A stretch of DNA of 64,000 nucleotides from Mesonia aquimarina (GTDB taxonomy: Bacteria; Bacteroidota; Bacteroidia; Flavobacteriales; Flavobacteriaceae), in assembly GCF_003667275.1 (NCBI RefSeq), contig NZ_RCNV01000009.1, forward strand, positions 62,001 through 126,000, given 5' to 3'. This document shows, piece after piece, positions 6,632-64,000 of the stretch. How positions within the stretch are numbered: position 1 is the first letter of the stretch; each line of letters opens with the position of its first letter. Position numbers and translations under genes: made by a program. A model generated the notes under the pieces. It saw only the letters and a program-made list of their open reading frames with translations, ran no database searches and was not told the DNA's origin.

Positions 6632-7081
6632 ATGAAACTAAGTCCGCTAATATTTTTATTTTTTATTGGAATAATCTCAAACGCTCAAAACTACACCCCT
6701 GCTACGACATCTGAAAAACCAATTGTAATAATCAACAATACAGTACTTGCCGATATTAATTTTTTAAACACTTACTCTTCTAAAGATCTTAACAAACTCG
6801 ATGTTGTAAAAGATAAACCTTTAAGTTCTAAATATCTTTTTATTGAAGACCAACATAAAAACAGTCTTATAAAAGCGGAAATTATAGGAGATTTTAAAAC
6901 TAAATCACAAAAAGAATTAAATATTTTCTTTGGCTTAAAAGAAACAAATGATATTTATGTAAATGGTTATTTGCTTGAAGATAAATCTCGACAAATACTA
7001 ACAAAGAGCATTAAGAAAATTGAATTAATTGAAGCTGATAAAGTAAGATTAAAAACTTCAATATTAAATATTACCATCTAA
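6632..7081 (+). CDS. Secreted hypothetical protein
   Basis: This 149-residue protein has a signal peptide (MKLSPLIFLFFIGIISNAQ, cleavage likely before N or Q). The mature part is a charged alpha/beta sequence rich in K, with no cysteines and no recognised motif. Repeated short segments of the type (K)SIKKIELIEADKV suggest a beta-rich domain of the kind found in periplasmic plug-like proteins, but this is weak. It stands alone between lptB and the convergent pssA. I do not recognise the family. Confidence 0.7.
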   Translation: MKLSPLIFLFFIGIISNAQNYTPATTSEKPIVIINNTVLADINFLNTYSSKDLNKLDVVKDKPLSSKYLFIEDQHKNSLIKAEIIGDFKTKSQKELNIFFGLKETNDIYVNGYLLEDKSRQILTKSIKKIELIEADKVRLKTSILNITI

Positions 7082-49164: not shown

Positions 49165-52100
49165 TTATATTTTGCCCCCCACCCCTTTAAACTTTTCTAC
49201 AAAAGCTGATATTTTTTGAAATACAGTTTGCTTTTTGGTTAAATACTGAGGATTTAAAGGACTCATTTTTGGTAAAATAGAATTCAATTCTGTACCGTTT
49301 TCACTGGCGTATTCGCGTTTTAGTGAAGATAGCATATAGCGCTTCGCTGCGTCTTCATTTAAGTTATCGTCCTCTATTAATTCTTCGGCTTCTTTCTTTT
49401 GTTTCTTTTGAGCAAATTCAAAGAAAGCATCTATAATACTAGACTTGTCTTCTATTGCATCCAGGTCGGTAGAATTTATGAAATCTACGACTAAGCTTTC
49501 TTTGGCTCTATTCCCAATACTAGCACGAATTACGCGTCTTATTTCTTCTACTAAGTCTGCTTTACTTTTTGTTTTCTTATTATTCTCAAAAATCAATTCA
49601 AGAATATAGTCTAAGTTGATTTCTTGTGATTTTAATAAGTCTATTTCAAAAACTACATCATCCCAATCGATATTAGATTCTTCAGCCTCCTTACCTTGTT
49701 TTTCTCTTCTTAGCCAATCGCGAATATCGTTATAGGTAGAGCGATAGTCTTGGACGGTTCGTTCTTCCAGCACTTCAAGGCCTTGCATTTTTTCAATATC
49801 TACATCACTTAAGAAATTCTCCTCCTTAAACTCTTCAATTGCTTCTTTATCATCTTTATCTATTTTTTGGAGTTCTTGAAGGTGTGTAAATTCATCATAA
49901 TTTTGCAAAATGTTTTCTACACGCAAGTATTCCCCAAAAAGTTTAGAAAATTCTTTTTTATCTTTTTCTGTTTCTATTTGATCTGGATTTGGGAACTTTT
50001 CATTCAACTCGTTTACAATTTCTATGTAACCGCGTCGCGCTTTGCCTGTGGCTATGTCTTCAAAGCCTTCTAAGTATTCTTTATAGCTTTTTTCTAAAAC
50101 AACATTCTTTGTCTTACTATCACCAAATAGCGTAATCGCATCTACCGTAGCTTTTTCTAAATCTCTAAAGGTGACAATGTTTCCAAACGTTTTCGTGGCG
50201 TCGTAAATACGATTGGTACGTGAAAAGGCTTGCATTAAACCGTGGTAACGCAGGTTTTTATCAACGAATAATGTATTTAAAGTCGGTGCATCAAAACCGG
50301 TTAAGAACATCCCTACGACAATTAAAAAGTCGATATCCTGATTTTTTACTCTTTTGGCTAAATCACGATAATAGTTTTGAAATTCTTTGCTATCTACTCC
50401 AAAACTGGTTTTAAACATTTGGTTATAATCACCAATAGCTTTGGTTAAAAATTCCTTACCACTCATATCCATTGCAGCAGGCTCGAAGGTCTCATCCTGA
50501 ATCTCACCTATTGCATTTTGTTCTTCATTGGCTGCAAAAGAAAAGATGGTTGCTATTTTTAAGGGCTTATCGCTCTCTTTTTGCAACTCATTCATCATTT
50601 CGTAATAGGACTTTGCTGCATCGATACTACTTACTGCAAACATTGCATTAAAACCGGTATTACCTCCTTTGGTTCTATGAGTTTTTTGCCTGAAATTATT
50701 TAAAATATATTGCGATATTTCTTTGATTCTTGTTGGATGTAATAATGCCTTTTTGTTTTCTGCGGCACTTAATTTATCTAAATCTTGTTCTGTTTCTATC
50801 CCTTTAAATTGAGGGCGAACATCGTTATAATCTACCTTGAATTTTAATACTTTTTCATCACGAATGGCATCGGTAATTACGTAGGAATGCAACTCCCTGC
50901 CGAATACGCCTGCCGTTGTATCTGCCCCTAACGCGTTTTCAGGAAAAATTGGTGTGCCGGTAAACCCAAATTGATAGTACTTTTTAAACTTCTTCTGTAA
51001 GTTTTTTTGAGCTTCTCCAAATTGTGATCTATGTGCTTCATCAAAAATAAAAACTACTTGCTTCTGGTATAAGGCTAAATTATTTTCACTTTTAATGAGG
51101 TTATTCAATTTTTGAATAGTAGTAACTATAATCTTATTATCGTCTTTCTCTATATTTCTTTTTAACCCGGCAGTATTTTCTGAACCGTTTACACTATCAG
51201 GAGAAAAACGTTGATACTCCTTCATTGTTTGAAAGTCTAAATCTTTCCGATCTACAACAAAAAATACTTTATCTATAAAATCTAATTCTGTTGCAAGCCG
51301 TGCTGCTTTAAAACTGGTAAGGGTTTTACCGGAGCCTGTTGTATGCCAAACATAACCACCACTTTCTGTAGTAGCCCATTTTTTAGCTTCATAGCTGCTT
51401 TTAATTTTCCATAAAATCCTTTCGGTTGCAGCAATTTGATAAGGACGCATTATCAATAAGGTGTTACTTATATCGAACACCGAATAATTAAGCAAAATAT
51501 TGAGTAAGGTATTTTTCTCAAAAAAAGTAGCAGTAAAATCTTTTAAATCCCTGATGAGTGAATTGTCAGATTTTGCCCAATTCATCGTAAAGTCGAAACT
51601 GTTTTTATTTCGCTCTACGGTATTTGCAAAGTATCGGGTATCTGTACCGTTTGAAATTACAAAAAGCTGTAAATATTTAAACAGTGAATTTGTAGTATTA
51701 AAACTTTCTTTGGTATAGCGGTGTACCTGGTTAAAGGCTTCACGAATGGCAATACCTCTTTTTTTAAGTTCAATTTGTACGAAGGGTAAACCATTGACTA
51801 AAATCGTGACATCATAACGATTGGCGTGTGTGCCTTTTTGCTCAAATTGTGAAATGACTTGCACTTTATTACGCGTCATATTCTGTTTATCTACTAAATA
51901 GATATTTTGGATATGCCCATCGTCAAATACAAAATCATAGATATAGTCGTCGTGTACCTTTCTTGTTTTATCAGTACTATTATCGCTGGGTTTGTCTAGA
52001 TACTCTACTACAAAACGCTGCCACTCTTTATCGGTAAATTGCATATCGTTTAGATTTTGCAATTGTACCCGCACATTGGCCAGCATTGATTGTTGATTAA

Positions 52101-52269
52101 GCTGCGGAAGCACTTCGTAGCCTTGATTTTTTAGATCTTGGATAATCTCTCTCTCTAAATCTGCTTCGGTTTGATAGCTTACAGGGGCTTCATTAACTTC
52201 TGAAAACTTTTTATACTTGTCTAAAACAATAAAGTTTTTTGACTCAGCTATGGGTTTATATTCTTTCAT
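49165..52269 (-). CDS. hsdR: Type I restriction endonuclease subunit R
   Basis: The 1034-residue subunit cuts and translocates DNA. It has a nuclease domain (about 110-220) with the D of [23 protein letters not shown] and its E-x-K, Walker [12 protein letters not shown] (about 305), [10 protein letters not shown], and a C-terminal helicase and HsdM-contact region. The length is typical. Its ATG overlaps the prrC stop by four bases. It is the last gene of the hsdM-hsdS-prrC-hsdR operon. Confidence 0.96.
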
Positions 52270-53468
52270 AAAATTATTTCTTCAGTATCGACATTAAACT
52301 GATATGTTGACGAAATTTCTTTTACAAGTCGTTTAAAAATAAGTTTATCGCCAGTGGTTACAATATTCGCCTCTTCTCCCGAGTGTTTAGAATGACTGGA
52401 TGCGTTAAGTATCCGTTTTACGTAAGGTTCTTTATCTCCTAAATTTGTTTTTGTTATTAGGTTACCCCAATGTTTATGACCAAGAAAAGTAGCTGTTTTC
52501 TCTAGAATATTTCGAAGTAAATTGAAATGAAATTTTTCAATATTATTGGATAAAGCAACATCCTTTAAAATAGACAAAAGATGTGTATGGTAGGAAAATG
52601 GAGAATCGTTTTGATTGTTGGTAAGTTGAAGTGTACCATCATCAAACTTTTCTAATAAATATTTCTCCAGTTTAGGTTTATAGTTATAACGAGCGTCTTT
52701 GTTGTTAAGTTCGTTATATATCACATTATAAAATAACGGATTGTGAGTTGTAATAATAAATTTTATATCAGATTGGCAGGATTTTATTAAGGTTGCAATA
52801 TTTACTGCTAGCTCAATTAAGTGCGTATCGTCTAATGAGCTTACTGGATCATCAATAAATACATATTCTAATTCATCAAACTGATCTGTTTCACGCTCAT
52901 CAGGTTCTGGTGTGTTTAATACCTCAATCACCTGATCTAATAAGCTGTAGAATACACTCCAAATAAAACAACTCTCTTCTCCTTTTGAAATTTTTATATT
53001 TCTTAAACTATCATCATCACCACTTTCTATTGAAAAGGTTACTTCTGAATAGGCTTTTACCGTAACATTTTTATTTTCTCTATTCTTAAAGGTGTACTGT
53101 TCGTTAAAACGTGGGGTAATTTTTTTTGAGGAATAATATTGAAAATTATCGATAACGTCCACTCCTTTACCTTGATCTGCAAGTATCCAATCTGTAAAAC
53201 GATTTGATTGTATTTTTAGCTTTCTGTCTAAATCTCCCTTTAAATCATTATCCCAATAAAATAGATCTTCTGTAAATGCATTATAATACATGATTTTAAC
53301 TTTAGTCTCTTCTTCTTGATTCTCTTGATCTATTTCTTTAGGCGATACTAATTCCTTAAACTCTCGCGACAATCTGGTTTTACCAGTCCCATTAAAAGCA
53401 TACATTAACTGAACCCTTTTTTGAGAATCTACAAGTTTTTGCGCTATTTGTTCTAAAGATTGACTCAT
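52266..53468 (-). CDS. prrC: PrrC anticodon nuclease
   Basis: PrrC cleaves tRNA-Lys in the anticodon loop when a phage disables the partner restriction enzyme. At 400 residues it matches E. coli PrrC (396). Shared segments include [20 protein letters not shown] (Walker A), [37 protein letters not shown] and [20 protein letters not shown]. The nuclease triad appears as R319, E323 (in LLRNILEKT) and H359 (in NASSHS), near R320/E324/H356 of E. coli. It lies between hsdS and hsdR, the same order as the prr locus, which supports latency control by the Hsd complex. Confidence 0.93.
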
Positions 53469-53469
53469 C

Positions 53470-54678
53470 TTATACTTCTATATTTTCTTTTGGAAAGTCT
53501 AACAACATTGAACGATAGTATTCATATTGTTTTTTACGTAATTCTATTTCTTTAGGTAAGCCTTCGCTTATTGAAGTGGTAAGGGTATCAAATTTATCGA
53601 GAATAGAGACGATGCGTTCTTGTTCTTTTGGGGAAGGGATAGGAACTAGAAACTTTTTAAAACCGTTCATATCTACAGACGCGAAACTAGATTTTGTTGT
53701 ATTATTTTTACACCATTCATCTAATAGAAAACTATAATAAAAAAGAAATTTTATATTAAATCTATTTTTATATTTTTTCTTTAGACTCAAATTAGTAAAT
53801 CTTTGATTAGATAAATAAGGAACAGTGATTAAAGCATGTTCTCCAATAGTTGCAGAAGTAGCAATAATAATAGAATTAGCAGGAAACAACTTACCGCCTT
53901 TAACTCCTTTTTCATTAACCCTTTGAATAGAATTATCTAAAACTCTTCCATGTTCTCTAATATCTTCCATACGGAACCAAGGAATAGTACCATTTGTCCA
54001 ATACTCTTTATTCTTTTTAGAAGGTGTATAACCATTTTTAACATTAAAAATATCCTCTAAAGTTTCCCATTCCACTTCCTCCTTATCAAAACTCAATAAC
54101 TGGTCGCGATAATACTCAAACTGCTGTTTACGGGCGGTAAGCTCTGCGGTAAGCTCTGCGGTAAGCTCTGCGGTAAGCTCTGTAAACGTATCGAGAATAT
54201 CAACTATTTTTTGTTGAATTTCTAGGGATTTTTTTGACTTATCGGGACAAGGGATGGGAATTTCCTTATTCGCATAATTACTAATCCATTGTCGTTTATG
54301 ATCACCATCAACTAAACCACTTGGAATTGTGTTTAACCAATAATACAAATACTTTAATAAAGCTTTTGATTCATCTTTAGAGGTAATCATTTTCATTGCA
54401 GATGATTTCACTTTAAAATCAAAGTCTACCCACTTGTTAGCAGTCGTAAAATCATCAAAAATTATCACAGGATTTTCTGATGCCTTGTATATACCGTTGG
54501 TCTCATTAGTATATCCCAATAAAAATGTTTTACCTGCAGTTAATACAGGTGTTTTGTATTCGTCACTATAAAGTTTTGATTTTACGCGATATTTAGTTGG
54601 CTGTTCATAATCGGCATAATCACCCAAAGTTTTCCATTCAACCTCAACCCCATCCAATAATTTTTCTAGATAATTCAT
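53470..54678 (-). CDS. hsdS: Type I restriction specificity subunit with TAEL repeats
   Basis: The 402-residue subunit has two target recognition domains (about 1-150 and 205-350), each followed by a conserved helical region ([14 protein letters not shown] and [14 protein letters not shown]). In the central region the four-residue unit TAEL is repeated; this is the element that sets the spacer length of the DNA target in EcoR124I-type enzymes. The stop lies one base from the prrC ATG, and the start overlaps the hsdM stop. Confidence 0.95.
54136..54183. repeat. Four tandem 12-bp units in hsdS (TAEL repeat)
   Basis: The unit GGTAAGCTCTGC occurs four times (54136, 54148, 54160, 54172; the last ends in T). 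On the coding strand it gives GCAGAGCTTACC, read as AELT. A 12-bp unit keeps the frame whatever the copy number. Confidence 0.95.
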
Positions 54679-56222
54679 CCTTCAATCTCTTTTACGATGT
54701 TATCAATCTCAGCACGAAGAGTATCTATTTTTTTTACAGTTTGCGCAACTTTTTTATTCAGCACCTCGATATCTATTTCCTCTCGGGTGTCTTTTGGTTC
54801 TACATAAGAACTTACGGAAAGGTTATAATCGTTTTCTGCAATCTTTGAATTATCAATAGTCGTAGCTACGTGTGCTTCTTCCTCTTTGCTGTCGAACATC
54901 TCTATAATCCTATCGATATGTTTGTCTAGCAATACATTATTATTCGTTTCTTTTTTAAAGAAATCTTCTCCGCTTACATCTATAAATTGGGTTTTCGTAT
55001 CGGTTTTTCTTTTAGAAAGCACCAAGATATTTACCGCGATAGAAGTCCCAAAAAACAAGTTAGGCGCTAACGAAATGACGGTTTCTACAAAGTTGTTATC
55101 AACCAAGTATTTTCTAATTTTTTGTTCTGACCCGCCACGGTAAAAAATACCCGGAAAACAAACCAAAGCTGCTCTTCCTCGACTGGACAAATAACTTAAA
55201 GCGTGTAGAACAAAAGCAAAATCTGCCTTCGATTTAGGTGCTAAAACACCAGCCGGAGCAAAACGGTCATCGTTAATCATTGTTGGATCGTCCTTACCAA
55301 TCCATTTTACCGAGTATGGCGGATTGGAAACAATGGCATCAAAAGGTTTTTCATCACCCAATTCAGGAGCTACCAGCGTGTCACCGTGTACTAAATGAAA
55401 CTTGTCGTAGTTGATGTTATGTAAAAACATATTCATACGTGCCAAGTTGTAGGTGGTGTAGTTAATTTCTTGTCCGTAGAAACCTTCTTGTATAATATGA
55501 TTTTTAAAATAGGTTTTCGCTTGTAGCAATAACGAACCAGATCCAGCCGCAGGATCATAAATTTTATTTACGGTCTCTTGTCTATGCAATGCTAATTTAG
55601 CGATAAGGTGAGATACATTGGGAGGCGTGAAAAATTCCCCTCCAGATTTACCTGCATTGGCGGCGTAGTTAGAAATCAAAAATTCATAAGCTTCCCCAAA
55701 AAAATCGATTTTATTATCTTCAAAACTACCAAACTTTAAACCGTCAACACCTTTGAGGACTTTAGCCAATCGGCTGTTTTTACTTTCAACCGTACTTCCC
55801 AGTCGGCTGCTCGTGGTATCAAAATCCGCAAACAAGCCTCTGATATCTTCTTCTGAAGGAAAACCGTTGGCAGAACTTTCGATTGCAGAAAATATAGCTG
55901 CTAAATCTGTATTTAAGTTTTCATTAGAATTAGCCTCTTTAACTACATTTATAAAAAGTTGGCTTGGATATATAAAATAACCTTTCGTTTTTACGGCATC
56001 TTCTTTAATCTCCGGCGTAATTACATCATCTGATAAACTAGCATAATCTATACTTTCGTCTCCACCCTCAATGTAAATGGTAAAATTTTCGCTGATGAAT
56101 CGATAGAAAAGCGTTCCTAAAACGAAGTGTTTGAAATCCCACCCATCTACTGAACCTCTAACTTCATTTGCTATTTTCCAGATTTGGCTCTTTAATTCGG
56201 CACTTTGTGCTGTACTTGTCAT
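54675..56222 (-). CDS. hsdM: Type I restriction methyltransferase subunit M
   Basis: This 515-residue N6-adenine methyltransferase has an N-terminal helical domain (about 1-160), the SAM-binding motif [13 protein letters not shown] (about 225) and the catalytic NPPY ([12 protein letters not shown]). It methylates host DNA and, with HsdS and HsdR, restricts foreign DNA. It is the first gene of the operon; its promoter should lie in 56223-56626. Confidence 0.96.
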
Positions 56223-56626
56223 TTATTGATTTTATGTGTTTTGCTCCACGTAACGGAACTATTTTTGAACTGAACATCCTGTAAATCTTTCCTAGCTTAA
56301 AAACTAACCTAGATTTTTTCTTAATAAAAGCCTAAATATAGGAAAAGTATAGGGTTATGCTATGATTTACCATTGGATTTTGTAGAATTATTGAAAAAAT
56401 TTAAGTCAAAAATTATATACTATTTATATTTAATTTTTAAACATAATATTTAGTTTTTTATTGACCCAACCAATATATACTAAAAAGAATGATTTCTTGG
56501 TTACCACAATGTGCGAGATCAAGAACGTGTGGTATGAGGTTATGATTGGAATTGTTGGGTAAATTAATTATTTTGTTTCTAAAGGTGCTAGCTATTGGAG
56601 GTAAACCGATGTTGTGGAATCTTACC
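56223..56626. other. Intergenic region upstream of hsdM
   Basis: About 400 bases, very AT-rich around 56390-56460. No gene or clear TAnnTTTG box was found. It should contain the promoter of the hsd-prrC operon. Confidence 0.4.
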
Positions 56627-56965
56627 CTACTTAATCATTTTCTTATGATGTTCCTCATAACCCGCAATCTTAAATAGTTCCTCAAATCCATCTTTAAAAT
56701 CATCATAATCAAATTCTTTAAAGTCAAATATATTTTGTCCTAAAGAATGGGATTCCCTGTTTATATACCTGTAAAAAGCTTGAAATCTGTTTGAATTAAG
56801 TGGCTCTTGTTTAAAGAAGTTGTTCAAATCTTTCTTCTCAACAAAATTGAAAAAATATTCAATTACATTTCTCATACAATTCGCAATTAAAGCTGGGTGT
56901 TGCTTTTCATCTTTAATTATATACCAATATGCTTGATAATCATTTTGTATTTCTTCATATCTCAT
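56627..56965 (-). pseudogene. Detached anticodon-nuclease domain of an RloC-like protein
   Basis: The 112 residues continue, in the same frame and after 42 further codons, the ATPase gene at 57092-58846. They contain the R-x(3)-E motif of PrrC/RloC anticodon nucleases (R32 and E36, in CMRNVIEYFF) and a histidine at 73 (INRESHS), so the triad is intact. Downstream of the premature stop it can be made only by read-through or by internal initiation at this ATG. Confidence 0.65.
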
Positions 56966-57091
56966 TCTTTGAAAAGAGCTACCATCACCATTCTTTATTA
57001 ATCTAATTAGTTTCTGATTTTCTTTTCGTTCTTGGTGTTTGGTTTCGGTAATCTCGTAGAAAAAATATAAGCTATGAGTTAGAATGAAAAC

Positions 57092-58846
57092 TTACTCATA
57101 ATTGTAATTCCAATTTACAATTCGTTCTCCCGTGTCTGGATTTTTTTTATTTTCTTTTTTTCCAAAAAACTCATTTTTTATTAATCTGCCGATATTAAAA
57201 ACATAAATATGAGAAAGACTGGAAATTGGATCATCAATAACTATAATCTTCTTTTTTCCAGTTTCTGTAACTTCCTGTTTTCCTTTACACATCTCAATAA
57301 AATACAAGAAACTGATAATCATTTTTTCTCCTTCGCTTAAGGAACGGAAAACCTTTTCTTCATTATCTTCTCGGACTATTTTGTATAAATTTTCAGAATG
57401 AGGTTCAATTTTAAAATCATTTATTCCTAAATCAATTAAACCGTCATTTATACTTTTAATTGCTTCTTTAATATTGACAGTTTGTTTTTGTTGTTCTGAA
57501 ATAATATTTCTTTGCTCAGAAATTTTATCATCTAAAGCTTCAATTGAATCGGTTAATTTATCCGATTTAATTTTTGAATTATTTTTTTCTTTATTATAGG
57601 ATTCAATGGTTTGGTCATAATCCCATCTCATATTCTCCCAAAATTGACTTTTTATTTTTGATCTAACTTTTGTTTTCTGGTCAATATTCTTATTATGTTC
57701 TAAAATTGAGGTATTGATTTGATCTACGAGTTCATTAAAATCTTGTGTAGCTTTTACCGAACTATCTAAGGCAATGGCAACACTCGGAGTTTTTATTTTA
57801 GACTCTATTTTCTCTTTATTTGATTCAACTATTTTCGTTAATCTGGCATATATAATTTCAAAGTCTTGTTTAAAGTCTTCGAATTTTGGATTTGTTTCAT
57901 ATATACTTTTATCTGGAATTGTCTTGATAGCATTAGAGTACTCATCTAAATAGGCTTTAAGTGAATTAAGATCAGATTCGTATGATTCATCAAAGTAACC
58001 TTGAATATTCTTTATCAGCTCATTGGTAATGCTTTTTTCTTGACAAAACGGACAATTTTGATTTTCTTCTAAAGGAGGATTGGGTAAGTATTCCAAACCA
58101 TCTTTAACCCAATCAGAATTACCTAGCTTAGTGATTAATTCCGATACGCTACTATTTTCATTACCAACAATTGCCTTGCTAAATAATTCTTTTGATTCAA
58201 TACCAGATGATGAAAAATTTATTTTTGGGACGTGAGTATATTTTTGAGCATTTTCACCAGAAATTGATTGTACTTCATCTTTAAGGTTTTCAATTGTTTT
58301 ACTTGGCTTTGTAGTTGGTTTTGATATGGATTCTATATGACTAAATAACTTATCTTTTGATCCTTTATGTCCTTCTAAGCAAAATTCAAGTACCCGATCA
58401 CCTCCGCTGTAATCAGTCTTAATTTTCCAAACAGTATTTTTTGCGTTATCAAGTTTATTATCTAACGATTTTTTTTCCTTTCCTAAATCTTCAATCTTTT
58501 TTTCTTTTACTTTATCAAGTTCATTAATTTCTTTTTCAGCTTCAGCTATTTTTATTTCGGCCTCCTTATTTTCTTTTGATAAAGTGAAAATACCTTTGAG
58601 ATTTTCAGATTCGAAAAAGCTCTCTTGTATGAAAGTTTGGTTATATACAAGTATTTCGTGATTATCATCTAAACCCTCAACGGAACAATTTTTAAATTTC
58701 TCAAGATCTCTTTTGAGCAGATAATTTGATAATGTGCTTTTACCCGTTCCATTTAAACCGTAAATCAGATTTACCTTCTTATCCGTTTCTAATATCGCTT
58801 GACTTTTATAGCTCGCTACTTTATTTAAATTTATCTTACTTATCAA
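57092..58846 (-). pseudogene. RloC-like ATPase, cut by an in-frame stop codon
   Basis: The 584 residues are the ATPase and coiled-coil part of an RloC/AAA_13-type protein: Walker A YGLNGTGKSTLSNYL (about residue 28), long coiled coils with a zinc-hook CPFC at about 264 (NQNCPFCQEKS), signature LSEGEKM and Walker B IIVIDDPISSLSH. Then TAA replaces a codon, and the frame resumes at once with VFILTHSLYFFYEI, which is the H-loop of the ATPase. The intact protein would have 739 residues. A single base change (CAA to TAA) would explain it. Sequencing error cannot be excluded. Confidence 0.75.
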
Positions 58847-58892
58847 TTCTTCAGTTTTTTATGAAACGATAGTTTTCTGGGGTATGGCGCAC

Positions 58893-59013
58893 ACCGTGTT
58901 TACATATAGTTTATTGCGTGTTTTAAGCACCTAATTTAGCAAATACAAACCAAATAGAAAATCCGCGAGGATTTTCGTAAGTAGGCTTGCACTAGCAATA
59001 AATTATATGCGGT
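58893..59013. repeat. Foldback repeat, copy 1
   Basis: Outer arms ACCG / CGGT and CATATAGTTTATTGC (58903-58917) / GCAATAAATTATATG (58995-59009) pair with one mismatch. The loop contains TAGCAAATACAAACC and a perfect inner hairpin GAAAATCC / GGATTTTC. A related element lies at 59967-60072. Together they frame the PutAbiC gene. Confidence 0.75.
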
Positions 59014-59040
59014 ATTGCAAACTGGCTTTTAATTTATTTC

Positions 59041-59916
59041 TTATCCTAAATTTCCTTTTCGAGATTCCCATTTCCTTTTTTCTTCCTCAAAGTTTTCTTC
59101 CTTAATTCGTAGATTTGAAAATTCTATTACTGGTTTTAAAAAAATTCTTGCTCTACTAAATCTGTAGCTTTGTTCTACACTAAAACCATTTTCAATGTAA
59201 TCTTCAGGCTCCATAAATTCCAATTCATCTTCTTGGATTTTAGAAATTCTTTCAATGACGCCCATTTTTACAAATCCAATATTAACAAAAAATAAATTTT
59301 TTAAGTCGTTTAATTCTTCAATCTCTAAATTTGATTTGAAAATTAACCTTTGTAAAACTTCTACGGTATTATAAATATTTTGTGCAAATTCAGTGATATT
59401 TGATTCGTTAGGATTGTATAATTTTAGTAATTTGATTATAGCAGTTTTCTTTTCTTTTTTAAATTGTTCATCTGATTTATCAATACCTTGATAAACTTCA
59501 TATAAGTTTTTATCAAGAAAAGTAATAGCTTCGTCTCCTTTCAACTTTTCCATATTAGTATCAAAGTTGAAATTCTCAATATATTTTTCAAATCTATTGA
59601 GTTGATTATAAACTAGACTAGTCGTTCTATTCATTAAAAACTCTTTGCGAGTTTCTTTCATTTCGTTTCTTTGTAATTCTAATTCAACTCGTTGATTTTG
59701 TAATTCCTGCTTTTGAATTAAAATTGTGACAATTACTCCAGCTAGAGCAAGACCTGAAAACAAAGCATTAAGTGCTCCATATGTGTCGCCAAAAGTTCCG
59801 CTTTTCGTCCAATCTGAGAAAAAATAATTTACGCCAAAAGGATATCCAATAGATATAATTATTAATAAAATTGCTATTAGAGTAAAATTCTTTAAATGAT
59901 TTTCTTTTTTGCTCAT
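59041..59916 (-). CDS. Putative phage abortive infection protein (PutAbiC-like)
   Basis: This 291-residue protein has two N-terminal membrane segments (about 11-30 and 45-65) around a conserved segment (SDWTKSGTFGDTYGALNALF), then a coiled coil (about 68-95) and a helical cytosolic domain (about 95-290). This is the layout of the PutAbiC family, thought to kill the cell by membrane damage when a phage is sensed. It is complete. Foldback repeats lie on both sides, so it may move as a unit. Confidence 0.75.
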   Translation of the reverse strand: MSKKENHLKNFTLIAILLIIISIGYPFGVNYFFSDWTKSGTFGDTYGALNALFSGLALAGVIVTILIQKQELQNQRVELELQRNEMKETRKEFLMNRTTSLVYNQLNRFEKYIENFNFDTNMEKLKGDEAITFLDKNLYEVYQGIDKSDEQFKKEKKTAIIKLLKLYNPNESNITEFAQNIYNTVEVLQRLIFKSNLEIEELNDLKNLFFVNIGFVKMGVIERISKIQEDELEFMEPEDYIENGFSVEQSYRFSRARIFLKPVIEFSNLRIKEENFEEEKRKWESRKGNLG

Positions 59917-59966
59917 AATTTATATAGAATCCTTACTTTTTTTCAGCCTGTTGGCAATGTCTCCTC

Positions 59967-60072
59967 CGGCTATGAGTAGTTGCGTGGATTAGCACTGAAC
60001 TTTGCAAATACACGCCAAACTGAAAATCCTCAAGTATTTTCTGAAGTAAGCGATATATAGCAATTACTTATA
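59967..60072. repeat. Foldback repeat, copy 2
   Basis: TATGAGTAGTTGC (59971-59983) pairs with GCAATTACTTATA (60060-60072); two G:T pairs replace A:T. The loop has TTTGCAAATACACGCCAAAC and GAAAATCC, like copy 1. It lies between the OLD-like gene and the PutAbiC start. Confidence 0.65.
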
Positions 60073-60083
60073 GTTGTGTCTAG

Positions 60084-62045
60084 TTATTTTATTATATCTT
60101 TTATTTCTTCAATCCAACCTAATGTTTTATTTATATCAGAGTTTTCAGTTATTTCTATATATTTTTCAGCAAAAACTATTTTGTTGTTGCCATAATTTTT
60201 ATTAAAAAAAGCTTTCAAAATATCTTTTTCGGAATCCTTTAAATCTAATGCGTTTTTAGAATAGATAGATTCTTCTCTTATACTTTCAGGTTTAATTAAT
60301 CGTTTTAATTCTTCATTGTCATTTGACAGATGTTTTAAAGCTTCTATGTAATGAGTTGAGTCTAATGAATCTTCTATTGTTGTTTCTGTAGTCAAATCAG
60401 AATTAATTTTGTGTAAAATTGTGTTATCGTTTTTATTAAATACTAACCTTTTAAAATACAGGTTTTTATTGTTAATGACGGTCTCTGCATCAACTCTATT
60501 TGCATCAGTGTCAATTAAACAAATTATTTTTCCTTTTTTGTCATAATCGGTATCTTTAAAAGGTCCCAATAAATAGTTATAAATTTTCATTACTTCTTCG
60601 TAACCTCCAACAGGTAGTATCCTTAGTTTTTGTTCTTGTATCTCTTTTTTAAAGTAATATTCAAAATATATTTTTTCTGATGAACCTTCACATATTATCC
60701 AATTATAAGGTTCTTCTTGAATTAAAGAAATAGTAATAGATTGTATTAAATCATTATAAGATTTAATACGATAATCTATTGATAAAGGTCCTCTAATTTT
60801 AGCTTTTTTATGTCTTTCTTTTTCTTGTTTTATAAATTCTCTAAAATTGCTTAAACTGAAAAAATCTGTTGTGATTTTATTGTCAGAATTTTTATTTATT
60901 GAAGTTGCCGTTCCTTCTGTTACGATTGGTAAAAAACCGTACCAATGAGTTGTAATTAAGATTTGATGATTTTCTCTAGCTATTTCAATTAACTTTTCGA
61001 ATTGTTCGTAACAATTACTAATATGTAATGATGATTCAGGTTCGTCAATTGCTATTATTAGGTTAGAATCTCTATCCAAATTCTTTTTTAAGAAAGAATA
61101 TGCTAAACCTATTAAAGCTTTTCTTTTTTCACCTGAACTTAGTTCATTTACAGATATTGTTTTTGTTGAACCAGGGATTTTTTTGTTAAGTTCTTTAATA
61201 GAAAAATAAGATTCAATTATTTTAGAAACTAAATCTGGCATTGTTAAGTTATTTTTATATTTACCCTTATAAGTATAGGTTTCTAAAACACTTTCAATGT
61301 CTTTTACAAATTTATCTAAATGTCCATTTATTTGATTAATAGTTTTTTGAGTAATTGCTTTTTCAATTTCTGATTGAACATTTTTGTCCATTAATTTTTG
61401 CATATCCTGTGTTTCTAACTTAGTATAAGTTTGAACATCAGTTTCTACAGGTATATATAAATACGAGTAATGTGAAATTATATATTCATAAAACCCATTA
61501 AAATATTCTTGCAATTCTGTTTCTTCATATTCTTTATGAGGTTTATCATTTATAAATGAAAGTTTCTTTTGATATGAACCAAAAAAACAACCACTACTTT
61601 TATATTTTCTTCCTACTAATAATAAAAAGTATTCATCAGGACTAAATTTTTCTTTAATTTTTTTTCTATGTTCATAAAAAGCTTCTAAAGATGCTCCCTT
61701 TGCCTTTTCATTTGTGCTCCATAAAAAATCTGATAAATTTTCAGCTTTTTTATATTGTTCTATATCTGCTTTTAAGGAATTACGTAATTTATTTTTAGGA
61801 ATTAAAAAAATAGGAAGAATATAAGGACTATTATTTCCACTTATACCTTCGGATTTAGCCTCATAATTGATAGACCAATCAGTAAAAGGTCTTTTGTTAA
61901 AAAAACAATCAAAGGACTCTAAAATAGAACTTTTTCCTGCTCCATTTTCACCAAGAATACTTGAGAATTTTGTGCCGTCAGATAATGGTAAATAGTTAAC
62001 TCCTTTATATATCTTATAATGTCTTATTATTAGTGATATTATCAT
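60084..62045 (-). CDS. OLD-like AAA ATPase with a TOPRIM nuclease domain
   Basis: This 653-residue protein starts with an SMC-type ATPase: Walker A LGENGAGKSSILES (about residue 32), signature LSSGEKRKALIGL and Walker B LIIAIDEPESSLH, and the H of ITTHWYGF. The C-terminal part is a TOPRIM domain with IICEGSSEKIYFEYY (catalytic E) and ICLIDTDANRVD (DxD). OLD-family nucleases give phage resistance by nicking DNA. It stands alone, without a helicase partner (as in Gabija). The subclass cannot be decided here. Confidence 0.8.
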   Translation of the reverse strand: MIISLIIRHYKIYKGVNYLPLSDGTKFSSILGENGAGKSSILESFDCFFNKRPFTDWSINYEAKSEGISGNNSPYILPIFLIPKNKLRNSLKADIEQYKKAENLSDFLWSTNEKAKGASLEAFYEHRKKIKEKFSPDEYFLLLVGRKYKSSGCFFGSYQKKLSFINDKPHKEYEETELQEYFNGFYEYIISHYSYLYIPVETDVQTYTKLETQDMQKLMDKNVQSEIEKAITQKTINQINGHLDKFVKDIESVLETYTYKGKYKNNLTMPDLVSKIIESYFSIKELNKKIPGSTKTISVNELSSGEKRKALIGLAYSFLKKNLDRDSNLIIAIDEPESSLHISNCYEQFEKLIEIARENHQILITTHWYGFLPIVTEGTATSINKNSDNKITTDFFSLSNFREFIKQEKERHKKAKIRGPLSIDYRIKSYNDLIQSITISLIQEEPYNWIICEGSSEKIYFEYYFKKEIQEQKLRILPVGGYEEVMKIYNYLLGPFKDTDYDKKGKIICLIDTDANRVDAETVINNKNLYFKRLVFNKNDNTILHKINSDLTTETTIEDSLDSTHYIEALKHLSNDNEELKRLIKPESIREESIYSKNALDLKDSEKDILKAFFNKNYGNNKIVFAEKYIEITENSDINKTLGWIEEIKDIIK

Positions 62046-62202: not shown

Positions 62203-62421
62203 CTATTTGTTCGGCAACTCAATATCCTTACAAACTTTTTTAAAAAGAAAACCGGGATCCTCATCTACAGCTAACGCAATTAAATATAACTCTCTAACTC
62301 TTAATTGAGTGCTTGGATTATTCGCCAATTCACTCAACCGAGTTTTGCTAATTCCTGTTTTACGAGAAACATCTGATCTATTAATAGATTTTTTAGCAAA
62401 ATAGAGCCCTAGTTCAGTCAT
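62203..62421 (-). CDS. Small Cro/CI-type helix-turn-helix regulator
   Basis: The 72 residues fold as an HTH_3 domain: LYFAKKSINRSDVSRKTGIS contains the recognition helix, with TRLSELANNPSTQLRVREL after it. ATG 62421 is preferred over the ATG one codon upstream. It is divergent from the sigma-factor gene and shares its 200-base upstream region, so it could control that gene. Confidence 0.8.
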   Translation of the reverse strand: MTELGLYFAKKSINRSDVSRKTGISKTRLSELANNPSTQLRVRELYLIALAVDEDPGFLFKKVCKDIELPNK

Positions 62422-62491
62422 CAATTTATCTTCTTTTCAATACATAAAGTTAGGCTTTAAGTTAAAGTTTTCCGATTATCTAAACTTTTAC

Positions 62492-62522
62492 TTGTGATTT
62501 TATCTTTTAATCAATACATTTA
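62492..62522 (+). promoter_or_regulatory. Candidate promoter of the sigma-factor gene
   Basis: TTG at 62492-62494 and TACATTTA at 62515-62522 (one mismatch to TAnnTTTG) are separated by 20 bases. They lie about 105 bases before the sigma-factor start. Low confidence. Confidence 0.3.
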
Positions 62523-62627
62523 TTCCGAATTTAAGAACATATTATCATAATAAATAAAATATTATTTTAACTGATAAACACAATATCCCATTTCACACCC
62601 TCATTTCTGCTTTAAAAAAAGCTAAAA

Positions 62628-63461
62628 ATGCGCGTTAAAGCCCGAAATCTTATGCAAACCCAAGACTTCCAAAACCTAAAACAAGGTAAGCCCATCGCTT
62701 TAGAACACCTCTATCAACAATACAGTCGCATGCTTTTTTGGTTGGGCAAGGAATTGATACGGGATGAGTTCGTGATTGAAACCTTGGTACAAGAAAGTTT
62801 TTTAACCCTATGGAAACATCGGGATACGCTAGAAACCCCACAGCACATCTTCTTTTTCCTGCGCTATGTCATGAAACGGGAATGCACCTATTATTACTGT
62901 CGGCCCAAAAATAAGTTTAACCGTTCCATCAACCGACTCAGTTTTTACGGCAACTATGAAGATTATATGCTAGGGCACGATCCGGTGGCGGAGGAAGATG
63001 AACATTTATTGGAACAAGAAGCTACCCAACGAGCCTTTGAACAGGTTAAAAACGTACTCCCCTACTTGAGTGCCGAGCGAAGTCGGCTGATCGAACTTTG
63101 CATTACCTATGGCTTTCAGTATAAAGCCATTGCCGAGGTGATGGGAAAAGGAATTACCCAAACCGCCAATGAGGTAAAACGTGCCATTGCCGAACTCAAA
63201 AGCATCCTGCGGCAAGACAATGCCCTTGAACCGGAAAAGCCCCAAAAGGCGCTAAAGCTACAAGGCAAAATGACCGAGGAACAAGCCAAGGTGTTTCAAT
63301 TGCGTTGTGAAGAGGCCTATTCCTTTGCCCGTATCGCGGAAGAATTAAACTGCTCTCAAAAAGAAGCGCAACAGGAGTTTATGACCGCCTATAGCTTTAT
63401 GCAGCAACAGCACGAACAACAAACAAACTCCCTCGGGGCAAGCCTCCAAGGCATTCGTTAG
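62628..63461 (+). CDS. ECF-type sigma factor linked to a Cas12f-like gene
   Basis: This 277-residue sigma factor is longer than a usual ECF factor (about 170-200). Region 2 spans about 25-92 (LEHLYQQYSRMLFWLGKELI, ETLVQESFLTLWKHRDTL). A first region-4-like helix-turn-helix lies at about 132-194 (LPYLSAERSRLIELC, GFQYKAIAEVMG) and a second at about 213-262 (MTEEQAKVFQLRCEEAYSF, ARIAEELNCS). No anti-sigma (FecR-type) gene is adjacent. The gene has more G+C than its left neighbours. The next gene, 72 bases downstream, is Cas12f-like, so it is likely a partner in RNA-guided transcription. ATG 62652 is a possible alternative start. Confidence 0.88.
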   Translation: MRVKARNLMQTQDFQNLKQGKPIALEHLYQQYSRMLFWLGKELIRDEFVIETLVQESFLTLWKHRDTLETPQHIFFFLRYVMKRECTYYYCRPKNKFNRSINRLSFYGNYEDYMLGHDPVAEEDEHLLEQEATQRAFEQVKNVLPYLSAERSRLIELCITYGFQYKAIAEVMGKGITQTANEVKRAIAELKSILRQDNALEPEKPQKALKLQGKMTEEQAKVFQLRCEEAYSFARIAEELNCSQKEAQQEFMTAYSFMQQQHEQQTNSLGASLQGIR

Positions 63462-63533
63462 AAACAAATTTTCAATTTCAAGGCAAGCCTCGGGGAGTAA
63501 TCCCGTTGGCGGTGCCAAAAACCGGTATCTAAG
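63462..63533 (+). other. Spacer between sigma and Cas12f-like genes with two small hairpins
   Basis: The 72 bases are G+C-rich in the middle and can form CGGG / CCCG (63491-63505) and TTGGC / GCCAA (63505-63517, a perfect five-base stem with a three-base loop). GGCAAGCCTC occurs here and also in the last codons of the sigma gene. It could be an mRNA structure that controls translation of the second gene, or part of a guide RNA. Not resolved. Confidence 0.35.
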
Positions 63534-64000
63534 ATGAAAAAGAATACGATCAAACTCACCCGAAAAATACAAGTGGTAGTCGATCTCCCCACAGCGGAAG
63601 AACGCAAAGAAGCCATCGGAAAACTATACGACTGGCAAGATCGCGCGTATAGAACAGCAAACCTGATGGCTTCGCACCTCTATGTACAGGAAATGATAAA
63701 AGAATTCTTTTACCTATCGGAAGGGATACAATACAAACTAGTCGATGAACAAAAAGAACCAAACGGCATCTTACAAACCTCCCGGATGAATACCATCTAT
63801 CAGGTCACCTCCAAACGTTTTAAAGGCAAGATGCCCACCAACATTATTTCCTGCTTAAAGGCGACTATGTACAGTAATTTTAAAAAGAACCGTGATGCTT
63901 ATTGGCGGGGCGAAAGTTCCTTGATGAACTTTAAACGGGATATGCCTTTTCCTTTTACCACCGAAGGCATGAGCAAACTGGTCTATGACAACGAAAAGAA
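63534..64000 (+). CDS. Cas12f/TnpB-like protein, N-terminal part (possible nuclease-dead Cas12f)
   Basis: The frame is open from ATG to the window edge and gives the first 155 residues. It starts KNTIKLTRKIQVVVDLP, like the first strand of Cas12f wedge domains. A helical REC-like region follows (EERKEAIGKLYDWQDRAYRT and MNTIYQVTSKRFKGKMPTNI), then SNFKKNRDAYWRGESSLMNF and RDMPFPFT, the return to the wedge seen in Cas12f and TnpB. The RuvC and zinc-finger regions are outside, so activity or loss of it cannot be judged. The sigma-factor neighbour, with no CRISPR array or cas1/cas2 in view, fits a dCas12f used for transcription rather than defence. Confidence 0.75.
   Translation, partial: MKKNTIKLTRKIQVVVDLPTAEERKEAIGKLYDWQDRAYRTANLMASHLYVQEMIKEFFYLSEGIQYKLVDEQKEPNGILQTSRMNTIYQVTSKRFKGKMPTNIISCLKATMYSNFKKNRDAYWRGESSLMNFKRDMPFPFTTEGMSKLVYDNEK

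Follow-up and report, generated by a model that had tools for sequence, protein, structure and literature searches.

A dCas12f-sigmaE gene pair of Mesonia aquimarina and a conserved attenuator-like leader matched by guide RNAs of its relatives

Introduction

The flavobacterium Mesonia aquimarina (assembly GCF_003667275.1) carries, at the end of a 64,000-nucleotide stretch of contig NZ_RCNV01000009.1, a sigma factor gene followed by a gene for a Cas12f-like protein. This stretch, here called the window, spans positions 62,001 to 126,000 of the contig (G000:C25:62001-126000, where G000 is the M. aquimarina genome); coordinates given without a contig or record are window positions. The second gene runs off the window, and the genome was searched beyond the window end to complete it. 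An original prediction, made from the letters of the window, put forward the candidate idea that the two genes encode a nuclease-dead Cas12f and a sigmaE factor that use a guide RNA to bring RNA polymerase to its targets. Here, we describe a comparative analysis of this gene pair, of the guide RNA gene that follows it, and of a conserved leader element, termed SRE, to which the guides of related bacteria correspond. The features on which the argument rests are the following.

62628..63461, + strand: extracytoplasmic function (ECF)-type sigma factor (sigmaE, or RpoE, of the dCas12f system); open reading frame (ORF) of 277 amino acids with Sigma70_r2/r4 matches; PDB 9n9q_C
63534..64000, + strand: N-terminal 155 codons of dCas12f, with no stop inside the window; from the ORF list; PDB 9n9c_A
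G000:C25:126835-126915, outside the window: guide RNA gene about 200 bases after dcas12f; seen by eye, then with a covariance model

Results

The sigma factor and dCas12f proteins

The two genes are codirectional and separated by 72 bases, and both ORFs, together with the sigma-70 region 2 and region 4 signatures of the first product, are as originally predicted. The sigma factor matches chain C of PDB entry 9n9q, "RpoE" (E 2.1e-87; residues 12-268 of 277 on 4-260 of the chain), and this alignment suggests the ATG at 62652 as the probable true start; the same entry also contains a dCas12f chain. On the M. aquimarina genome dcas12f is complete, encoding 365 amino acids and ending outside the window at G000:C25:126631 (stop at 6632 of locus record L009). 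The protein aligns along its entire length, well past the 155 residues that the window holds, with the 365-residue chain A of 9n9c, "Nuclease-deactivated Cas12f" (1-365 on 1-365, E 1.4e-171), the next-best PDB matches being chains named "Cas12f Effector" and "Cas12f Nuclease" (E 6e-39). Profile searches returned PADLOC Cas12f at E 5e-52 and NCBIfam TnpB at E 2e-18, the latter under the curated cut-off of that model. Entries 9n9c, 9n9m, 9n9o and 9n9q represent the dCas12f-sigmaE system of the Sternberg and Chang laboratories (2025). Both members of the predicted pair match chains of one solved set.

The loss of the catalytic residues, which the original prediction had proposed to check, is evident in the alignment with 9nzo: the RuvC aspartate is replaced by Ser228 and the glutamate by Met323, and the C-terminus is absent, the protein stopping where the TNB part begins. 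Among 17 aligned homologues, none carries an acid at either RuvC position; at residue 228, 16 have Ser and one has Thr; residue 323 varies among M, L, I, R and V; and at residue 324 all but one have Asn, the exception having Asp. We collected 32 records of relatives, from Salegentibacter, Mesonia, Leeuwenhoekiella, Muricauda, other genera and a few metagenome-assembled genomes (one titled Cytophagaceae); the named genera belong to the Flavobacteriaceae. The dCas12f of 30 of these is 365-366 amino acids long, L028 being cut at a contig end and L031 broken. In all 29 relatives measured, a frame of at least 200 codons, which is the sigma gene wherever it was read, ends 1-20 bases before dcas12f, the spacing being 1-2 bases in 28 and 20 in the remaining one.

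That these genes encode a conventional nuclease, either TnpB or type V-F CRISPR, beside an unrelated sigma factor has next to no probability. The distant similarity to TnpB and Cas12f would agree with it, but the loss of the RuvC residues and of the C-terminus already contradicts it, and there is neither an array in the parts searched nor a cas1 gene nearby. A TnpB nuclease of the IS200/IS605 or IS607 kind was ruled out in the absence of an intact RuvC triad and zinc ribbon, and type V-F CRISPR-Cas12f was ruled out since no array occurs in the parts searched and both cas1 genes of the genome lie elsewhere. These two genes are at G000:C6:23174-23869 and, on the same contig as the window, at G000:C25:41652-42344. 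The predicted lack of cas1 in the window therefore holds; that of an array holds for positions 40000-64000, where, as in 4000-13000 of L009, a direct-repeat search found no CRISPR-like array, positions 1-39999 having been left unsearched. From comparison of their sequences, we regard it as settled that the two genes belong to the dCas12f-sigmaE group of RNA-guided transcription systems. This kind of system has already been described, and the M. aquimarina locus adds a new member.

A guide RNA gene downstream of dcas12f

The original prediction also proposed to look for a structured guide RNA near the gene, and one was found downstream of dcas12f. In most relatives the DNA at this place shares the sequence GAGGGTGCTTGYACACCC...GGTGAGGT...ACACTCACTAAATG...CATATACAAC, followed in most by GCGTGGGCTCTCTTATTT, and the scaffold comprises three helices supported by paired changes. 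A covariance model (R2) was built from 28 sequences, including the M. aquimarina copy, which had first been spotted by eye; it matches the scaffold at C25:126835-126899 with 75.6 bits (E 2.6e-15), the sole copy in this genome. The guide of this gene is given as GCGTGGGCTCTTTTTT and reads GCGTGGGCTCTTTTTTTTG. Copies occur in all 24 genomes of relatives, 1 to 13 in each, many of these genomes having supplied sequences to the model, and in 22 of 397 sampled genomes of the family, including all 19 that carry dCas12f.

Guides of relatives match a conserved leader element

We extracted guides from 91 matches, of which five were dropped as low scoring or not fetched (two in G013, one in G018, two in G021), as was one further weak match, leaving 86 guides from 25 genomes. 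When the consensus guide was searched with at most two mismatches in seven relatives, 26 matches were obtained versus 4 for the reversed pattern: 12 in the SRE, 10 in guide RNA genes and 4 elsewhere. In relatives, such guides match one strand of the SRE, a conserved, two-fold, terminator-like leader, with a 5'-G ahead of the match.

Within single genomes, 24 of the 86 guides agree with an SRE of the same genome in at least 14 of 16 positions; in 23 of these 24 the site is preceded by G. Of the 22 genomes with guides as well as SREs, 16 contain such matches (M. aquimarina is among the 22 and not among the 16). Same-genome matching exceeds that under label shuffles (total 816 versus a mean of 791; 5 of 2000 shuffles as high). 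Divergent guides also go with equally divergent SREs, and these are the strongest individual examples: in G018 the guide GGCGTGTCATCCCACTT accompanies the SRE GGCGTGTCATCCGACTTAT (a case also given as GGCGTGTCATCC), and in G013 the guide GCGTGAGCTTGCTTAT accompanies GCGTGAGCTTACTTG. A second recurring class of guides, (C)CTTCCCCTAAAGATTAAA and AAAGCCTTCCCCTATTAACC, which lacks the GCGTG/GCGCG seed, was seen in Salegentibacter and Leeuwenhoekiella (L187, L188, L189, L190, L173, L168).

Genomic position and distribution of the SRE

SREs were located with a covariance model (R1) built from 12 matches in 6 genomes. Five weak minus-strand matches inside SRE loci were dropped, and the genome of L025 was outside the search. 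The SRE occurs in 21 of the 24 genomes of relatives (58 matches), or in 15 of 18 when the 6 that supplied the model are excluded. Genes following the SREs were typed by Pfam scans, which replaced a typing by regular expressions that proved too crude. Among the first genes after the 60 SREs of dCas12f genomes (52 scanned), 25 encode proteins with a CarbopepD_reg domain of the SusC type, and another 22 encode sigma factors. Nineteen of the 60 SREs, in 14 of the 24 genomes of relatives, stand directly before sigma-dcas12f as counted by reading, at a distance of 98-176 bases in 18 and 470 in one. A divergent frame of at least 60 amino acids starts 40-200 bases upstream of 91 of 99 SREs, a count made without a chance control; 61 of these 91 frames match HTH_3 and others match related helix-turn-helix (HTH) families.

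The SRE is not confined to genomes with dCas12f. In the 397-genome sample, searched at the stricter filters of Infernal, dCas12f was found in 19 genomes (one with a broken copy and one with a fragment) and the SRE in 68: in 18 of the 19, two of which are sources of the model, versus 50 of the other 378 (Fisher 3e-14). Of the 50, 38 were fetched and inspected, yielding 39 SREs; of 38 first genes in genomes without dCas12f, 30 are of the SusC type and 2 are sigma factors. The target GGCGTGGGCT is kept in 29 of the 39, versus 41 of the 60 in genomes with dCas12f. Since the SRE is present, with the same target, in genomes that lack dCas12f, it must have a role of its own, and it is likelier that the guide followed the SRE in evolution than the reverse.

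Some low-scoring SRE-like elements (L149, L152, L254, L255, L256) lack a divergent frame and lie 46-53 bases before the start codons of other genes, placed as an ordinary cis-regulator would be. Between the SRE and susC there is also a small conserved frame of about 32-49 codons (for example L099, L107, L109, L227, L249) that looks like a leader peptide. It ends in (F)DILFKKKPKNP(I/V)-stop or alike after 28 of the 99 SREs, in 27 of them 126-207 bases beyond the element; no frame with such an ending was seen before the two susC genes that follow SREs in M. aquimarina.

The SRE has the features of an attenuator

For promoter and pairing counts, 11 low-scoring or duplicate SREs were removed from the 99, leaving 88, or 86 once identical sequences were removed. 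A TAnnTTTG box lies 25-60 bases upstream of the model start in 81 of the 88, whereas only 5 of 349 background windows (36 bases each) contain one; this motif is the sigmaA -7 box reported for Flavobacterium psychrophilum (PMC9723704). The run TTTT is found at the SRE end or within the following 8 bases in 76 of the 88.

Two mutually exclusive folds, a long nested hairpin and a terminator, are each backed by paired changes among the 86 sequences. In the hairpin fold, AACAG/CUGUU is 97.7% paired versus 59.5% in shuffles, with 169 versus 56 double-change cells, and GCAAC/GUUGC is 85.1% paired versus 58.8%; ACUGGYA/URCCAGU (99.3% versus 97.5%) and GCUCACG/CGUGGGC (99.0% versus 97.9%) have smaller excesses. 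In the terminator fold the corresponding values are 98.2% versus 95.8% for GGCGUGG/CCACGCC, 95.9% versus 93.5% for CUUAUY/RRUAAG, and 96.7% versus 93.7% for the upstream UCUCG/CGAGA. The helices AUAAG/CUUAU of the first fold and GCUU/AAGC, GAAAA/UUUUU and GGUA/UACC of the second are near-invariant and little informative. The shuffles ignore relatedness among the sequences, so most weight falls on the two helices with large margins, AACAG/CUGUU and GCAAC/GUUGC, whose pairing drops to 22-52% in slid controls. Single sequences fold either way, and the two SREs of M. aquimarina adopt different forms (z -3.1 and -3.3). We read the SRE as a putative transcription attenuator. When 11 SRE-bearing loci of relatives were compared with Rfam 15, no family matched the SRE even at E 1 (the two M. 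aquimarina SREs were not included), and among the papers listed by literature searches none showed a susC leader RNA or attenuator of this kind.

The guide corresponds to the ascending arm of the SRE terminator. In the 80 of 88 SREs that fit a search pattern in which the leading G is imposed, the descending arm starts 43-54 bases (median 48) from this 5'-G; the other eight were not fitted. In known dCas12f-sigmaE systems a 5'-G adjoins the target, targets lie upstream of susCD, and the position of the R-loop sets the transcription start, at about 46 bp downstream.

A model for RNA-guided transcription from the SRE

Several parts of the model are seen in the sequence itself: the gene pair and its homology to a solved complex, the replaced catalytic residues, the gene for the guide RNA, the agreement of guides with targets in relatives, and the SRE with its position before susC. 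We consider it very probable that the locus encodes a chromosomal dCas12f-sigmaE system in which the guide leads to an SRE before susC-susD, where transcription would start through the recruited sigma factor without a promoter motif. In such a system, dCas12f would bind the RNA transcribed from the guide gene that follows its own, and the guide would lead the complex to DNA that begins GCGTGGGCT after a G, within the SRE that precedes a susC-susD operon. RNA polymerase would then be recruited by the sigma factor attached to the complex, and transcription in M. aquimarina would start at a fixed downstream distance with no need of a promoter motif.

The spacing of 43-54 bases and the start distance of about 46 would together place the guided start at the edge of the descending arm. 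A transcript begun there would lack the ascending arm and hence could not form the SRE terminator. We therefore propose, tentatively and with somewhat less than even confidence, an RNA-guided bypass of an attenuator: the SRE, present in 68 of 397 genomes, would restrain susCD, and the guide would have evolved to equal the ascending arm such that a start just past it escapes termination. Where an SRE precedes sigma-dcas12f, as in 14 of the 24 genomes of relatives, the system would activate itself.

Two other modes of action were weighed against guided initiation. The dCas12f could be a repressor of the TldR kind that blocks the SRE promoter or elongation, the sigma factor being a mere neighbour; binding within a transcribed leader could indeed stop read-through, and TldR provides a precedent (PMC13418256). 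The constant adjacency of the sigma-side frame to dcas12f in 29 of 29 relatives, and RpoE being a chain of the solved entry, make this improbable. Alternatively, the guide could pair with the SRE transcript rather than with DNA, acting in trans as an antiterminator on the descending strand, the partner of the ascending strand that the guide equals. This, too, we consider quite improbable: the identity of guide and DNA protospacer reaches 14-16 of 16 in 16 genomes, whereas pairing with the descending strand has internal loops; all but one of the 24 good pairs have a G just before the site; and RpoE is part of the solved entry.

Several observations weigh against the model. Twenty-six of the 86 guides (25 genomes) do not start with a GCGTG or GCGCG seed, and are therefore aimed elsewhere or decayed, and in three dCas12f genomes a guide RNA is present with no SRE found at E up to 0.01. 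The remaining points of this kind concern M. aquimarina itself: its guide RNA has no folding advantage over shuffled versions (z -1.45), 20 of 200 of which did equally well, and its targets and operon, described below, match the model imperfectly.

Targets and condition of the system in M. aquimarina

The R1 search found two SREs in this genome, at C24:2007-2149 and C25:27623-27766, besides one chance-level match on C23. The SRE at C25:27623 comes after a divergent HTH gene and is followed by susC (986 amino acids), susD (460 amino acids) and an M16 peptidase gene. Its site, GCGTGGGCTGCTTGTT, shares with the guide the first 9 bases (the seed) and 13 of 16 positions overall, with the 5'-G kept. 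The original expectation of guide targets upstream of susC holds in relatives; in M. aquimarina the match is imperfect. The SRE at C24:2007 has GCGCGGCCTCTCTTAT, which matches the guide at 12 of 16 positions by eye, and the susC after it looks broken, with no beta-barrel match and no susD following. A guide-only search of the genome with at most three mismatches gave 37 sites versus 30 for the control, with no enrichment; the C25 site was in that list, indistinguishable from chance until R1 pointed there.

Upstream of sigma-dcas12f, and between the two genes, the locus contains the following.

62203..62424, - strand: divergent gene for a Cro/C1-type HTH protein of 73 amino acids; HTH_26, E 1e-7
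62425..62627, no strand: intergenic region from the HTH gene to the sigma gene; the SRE search of the genome found none here
63425..63521, + strand: palindromic interspersed repeat of about 97 bases; 10 other matches in the genome, none at the loci of the 32 relatives

The R1 search of the genome thus found no SRE before its sigma-dcas12f operon, despite the divergent HTH gene. The nearest related locus, on C48 of Salegentibacter sp. R32, likewise lacks one there; this strain carries nearly the same divergent HTH gene, with upstream DNA 92% identical over 467 bases.

The palindromic repeat supplies the C-terminus of the sigma factor and the 72-base gap. Since it is absent from the loci of relatives and lies at varied sites of the genome, we consider it an insertion; for the same reasons it was rejected as a guide scaffold. 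Eight of its 11 copies were read (besides the one in the window, matches lie in L002-L008, L009:12918-13016 and L010:7615-7684). Three of the eight, namely those at sigma-dcas12f, at thiM and at an ORF of 80 amino acids, end about 10-12 bases before an ATG, and the thiM copy sits shortly after a thiamine pyrophosphate (TPP) riboswitch.

The imperfect guide match, the lack of an SRE at the operon and the absence of enrichment in the search raise the possibility that the M. aquimarina copy is weak or in decay. A full version of this view, in which the proteins are intact while the guide has drifted to a T-run, SRE control has been lost, the genes have been split and one target is broken, appears possible but rather unlikely. 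It fits with a match that reaches 13 of 16 at best, the missing SRE before the sigma gene, the repeat inserted between the genes, the state of the C24 susC and the presence of a single guide RNA. Both genes, however, are full-length and open with core residues conserved, and at the C25 susCD operon, which is intact, the seed of the guide and the 5'-G have been preserved. The two genomes of the same genus, Mesonia, in the 397-genome sample have neither dCas12f nor SRE.

Genomic neighbourhood

The gene pair has a higher G+C content than the defence genes to its left, as had been noted (0.45 at 63000-63999 versus 0.25-0.31 across 56000-61999). By eye, defence-like genes adjoin the unit in two genomes: type I restriction and ATPase genes lie beside it here at 49165-62045, and patatin-like and nucleotidyltransferase-like genes lie beside that of Salegentibacter R32 (L012, upstream, 444-2983). 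Beyond the guide RNA, L009:6985-11612 has few genes, and repeats of 23-300 bases are scattered along it, with as many as 9 copies.

Discussion

Our analysis places an RNA-guided sigma system in M. aquimarina and names its guide and likely target operon. It goes beyond the original prediction in three respects: the guide is aimed at an attenuator-like element, the gap of 72 bases stems from a repeat insertion, and the match in this genome is imperfect. Most guides of the dCas12f family are tied to one conserved leader, present also in genomes without the system, and this link, which may be a new part of the picture, offers a concrete reason for a bacterium to start transcription inside a leader.

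The locus resembles the dCas12f-sigmaE system of the PDB entries in the full-length homology of dCas12f, in its sigma partner and in a guide RNA at the locus; the 5'-G and the targets upstream of susCD reported for such systems recur in the relatives studied here. It differs in the 97-base repeat between the genes, in its SRE-class guide and in the imperfect guide-target match. The copy of Allomuricauda abyssi (G010, L134), by eye the most like the PDB protein, adjoins a guide of another kind. TldR proteins are TnpB-derived repressors that act without a sigma factor. Like the system described here they are RNA-guided, nuclease-dead and regulate transcription (PMC13418256). Finally, the SRE resembles attenuators and terminator-type riboswitches in its promoter box, its two mutually exclusive folds and its terminal hairpin followed by a T-run, and differs from them in that it matched no Rfam 15 family and that its site doubles as the target of a guide RNA.
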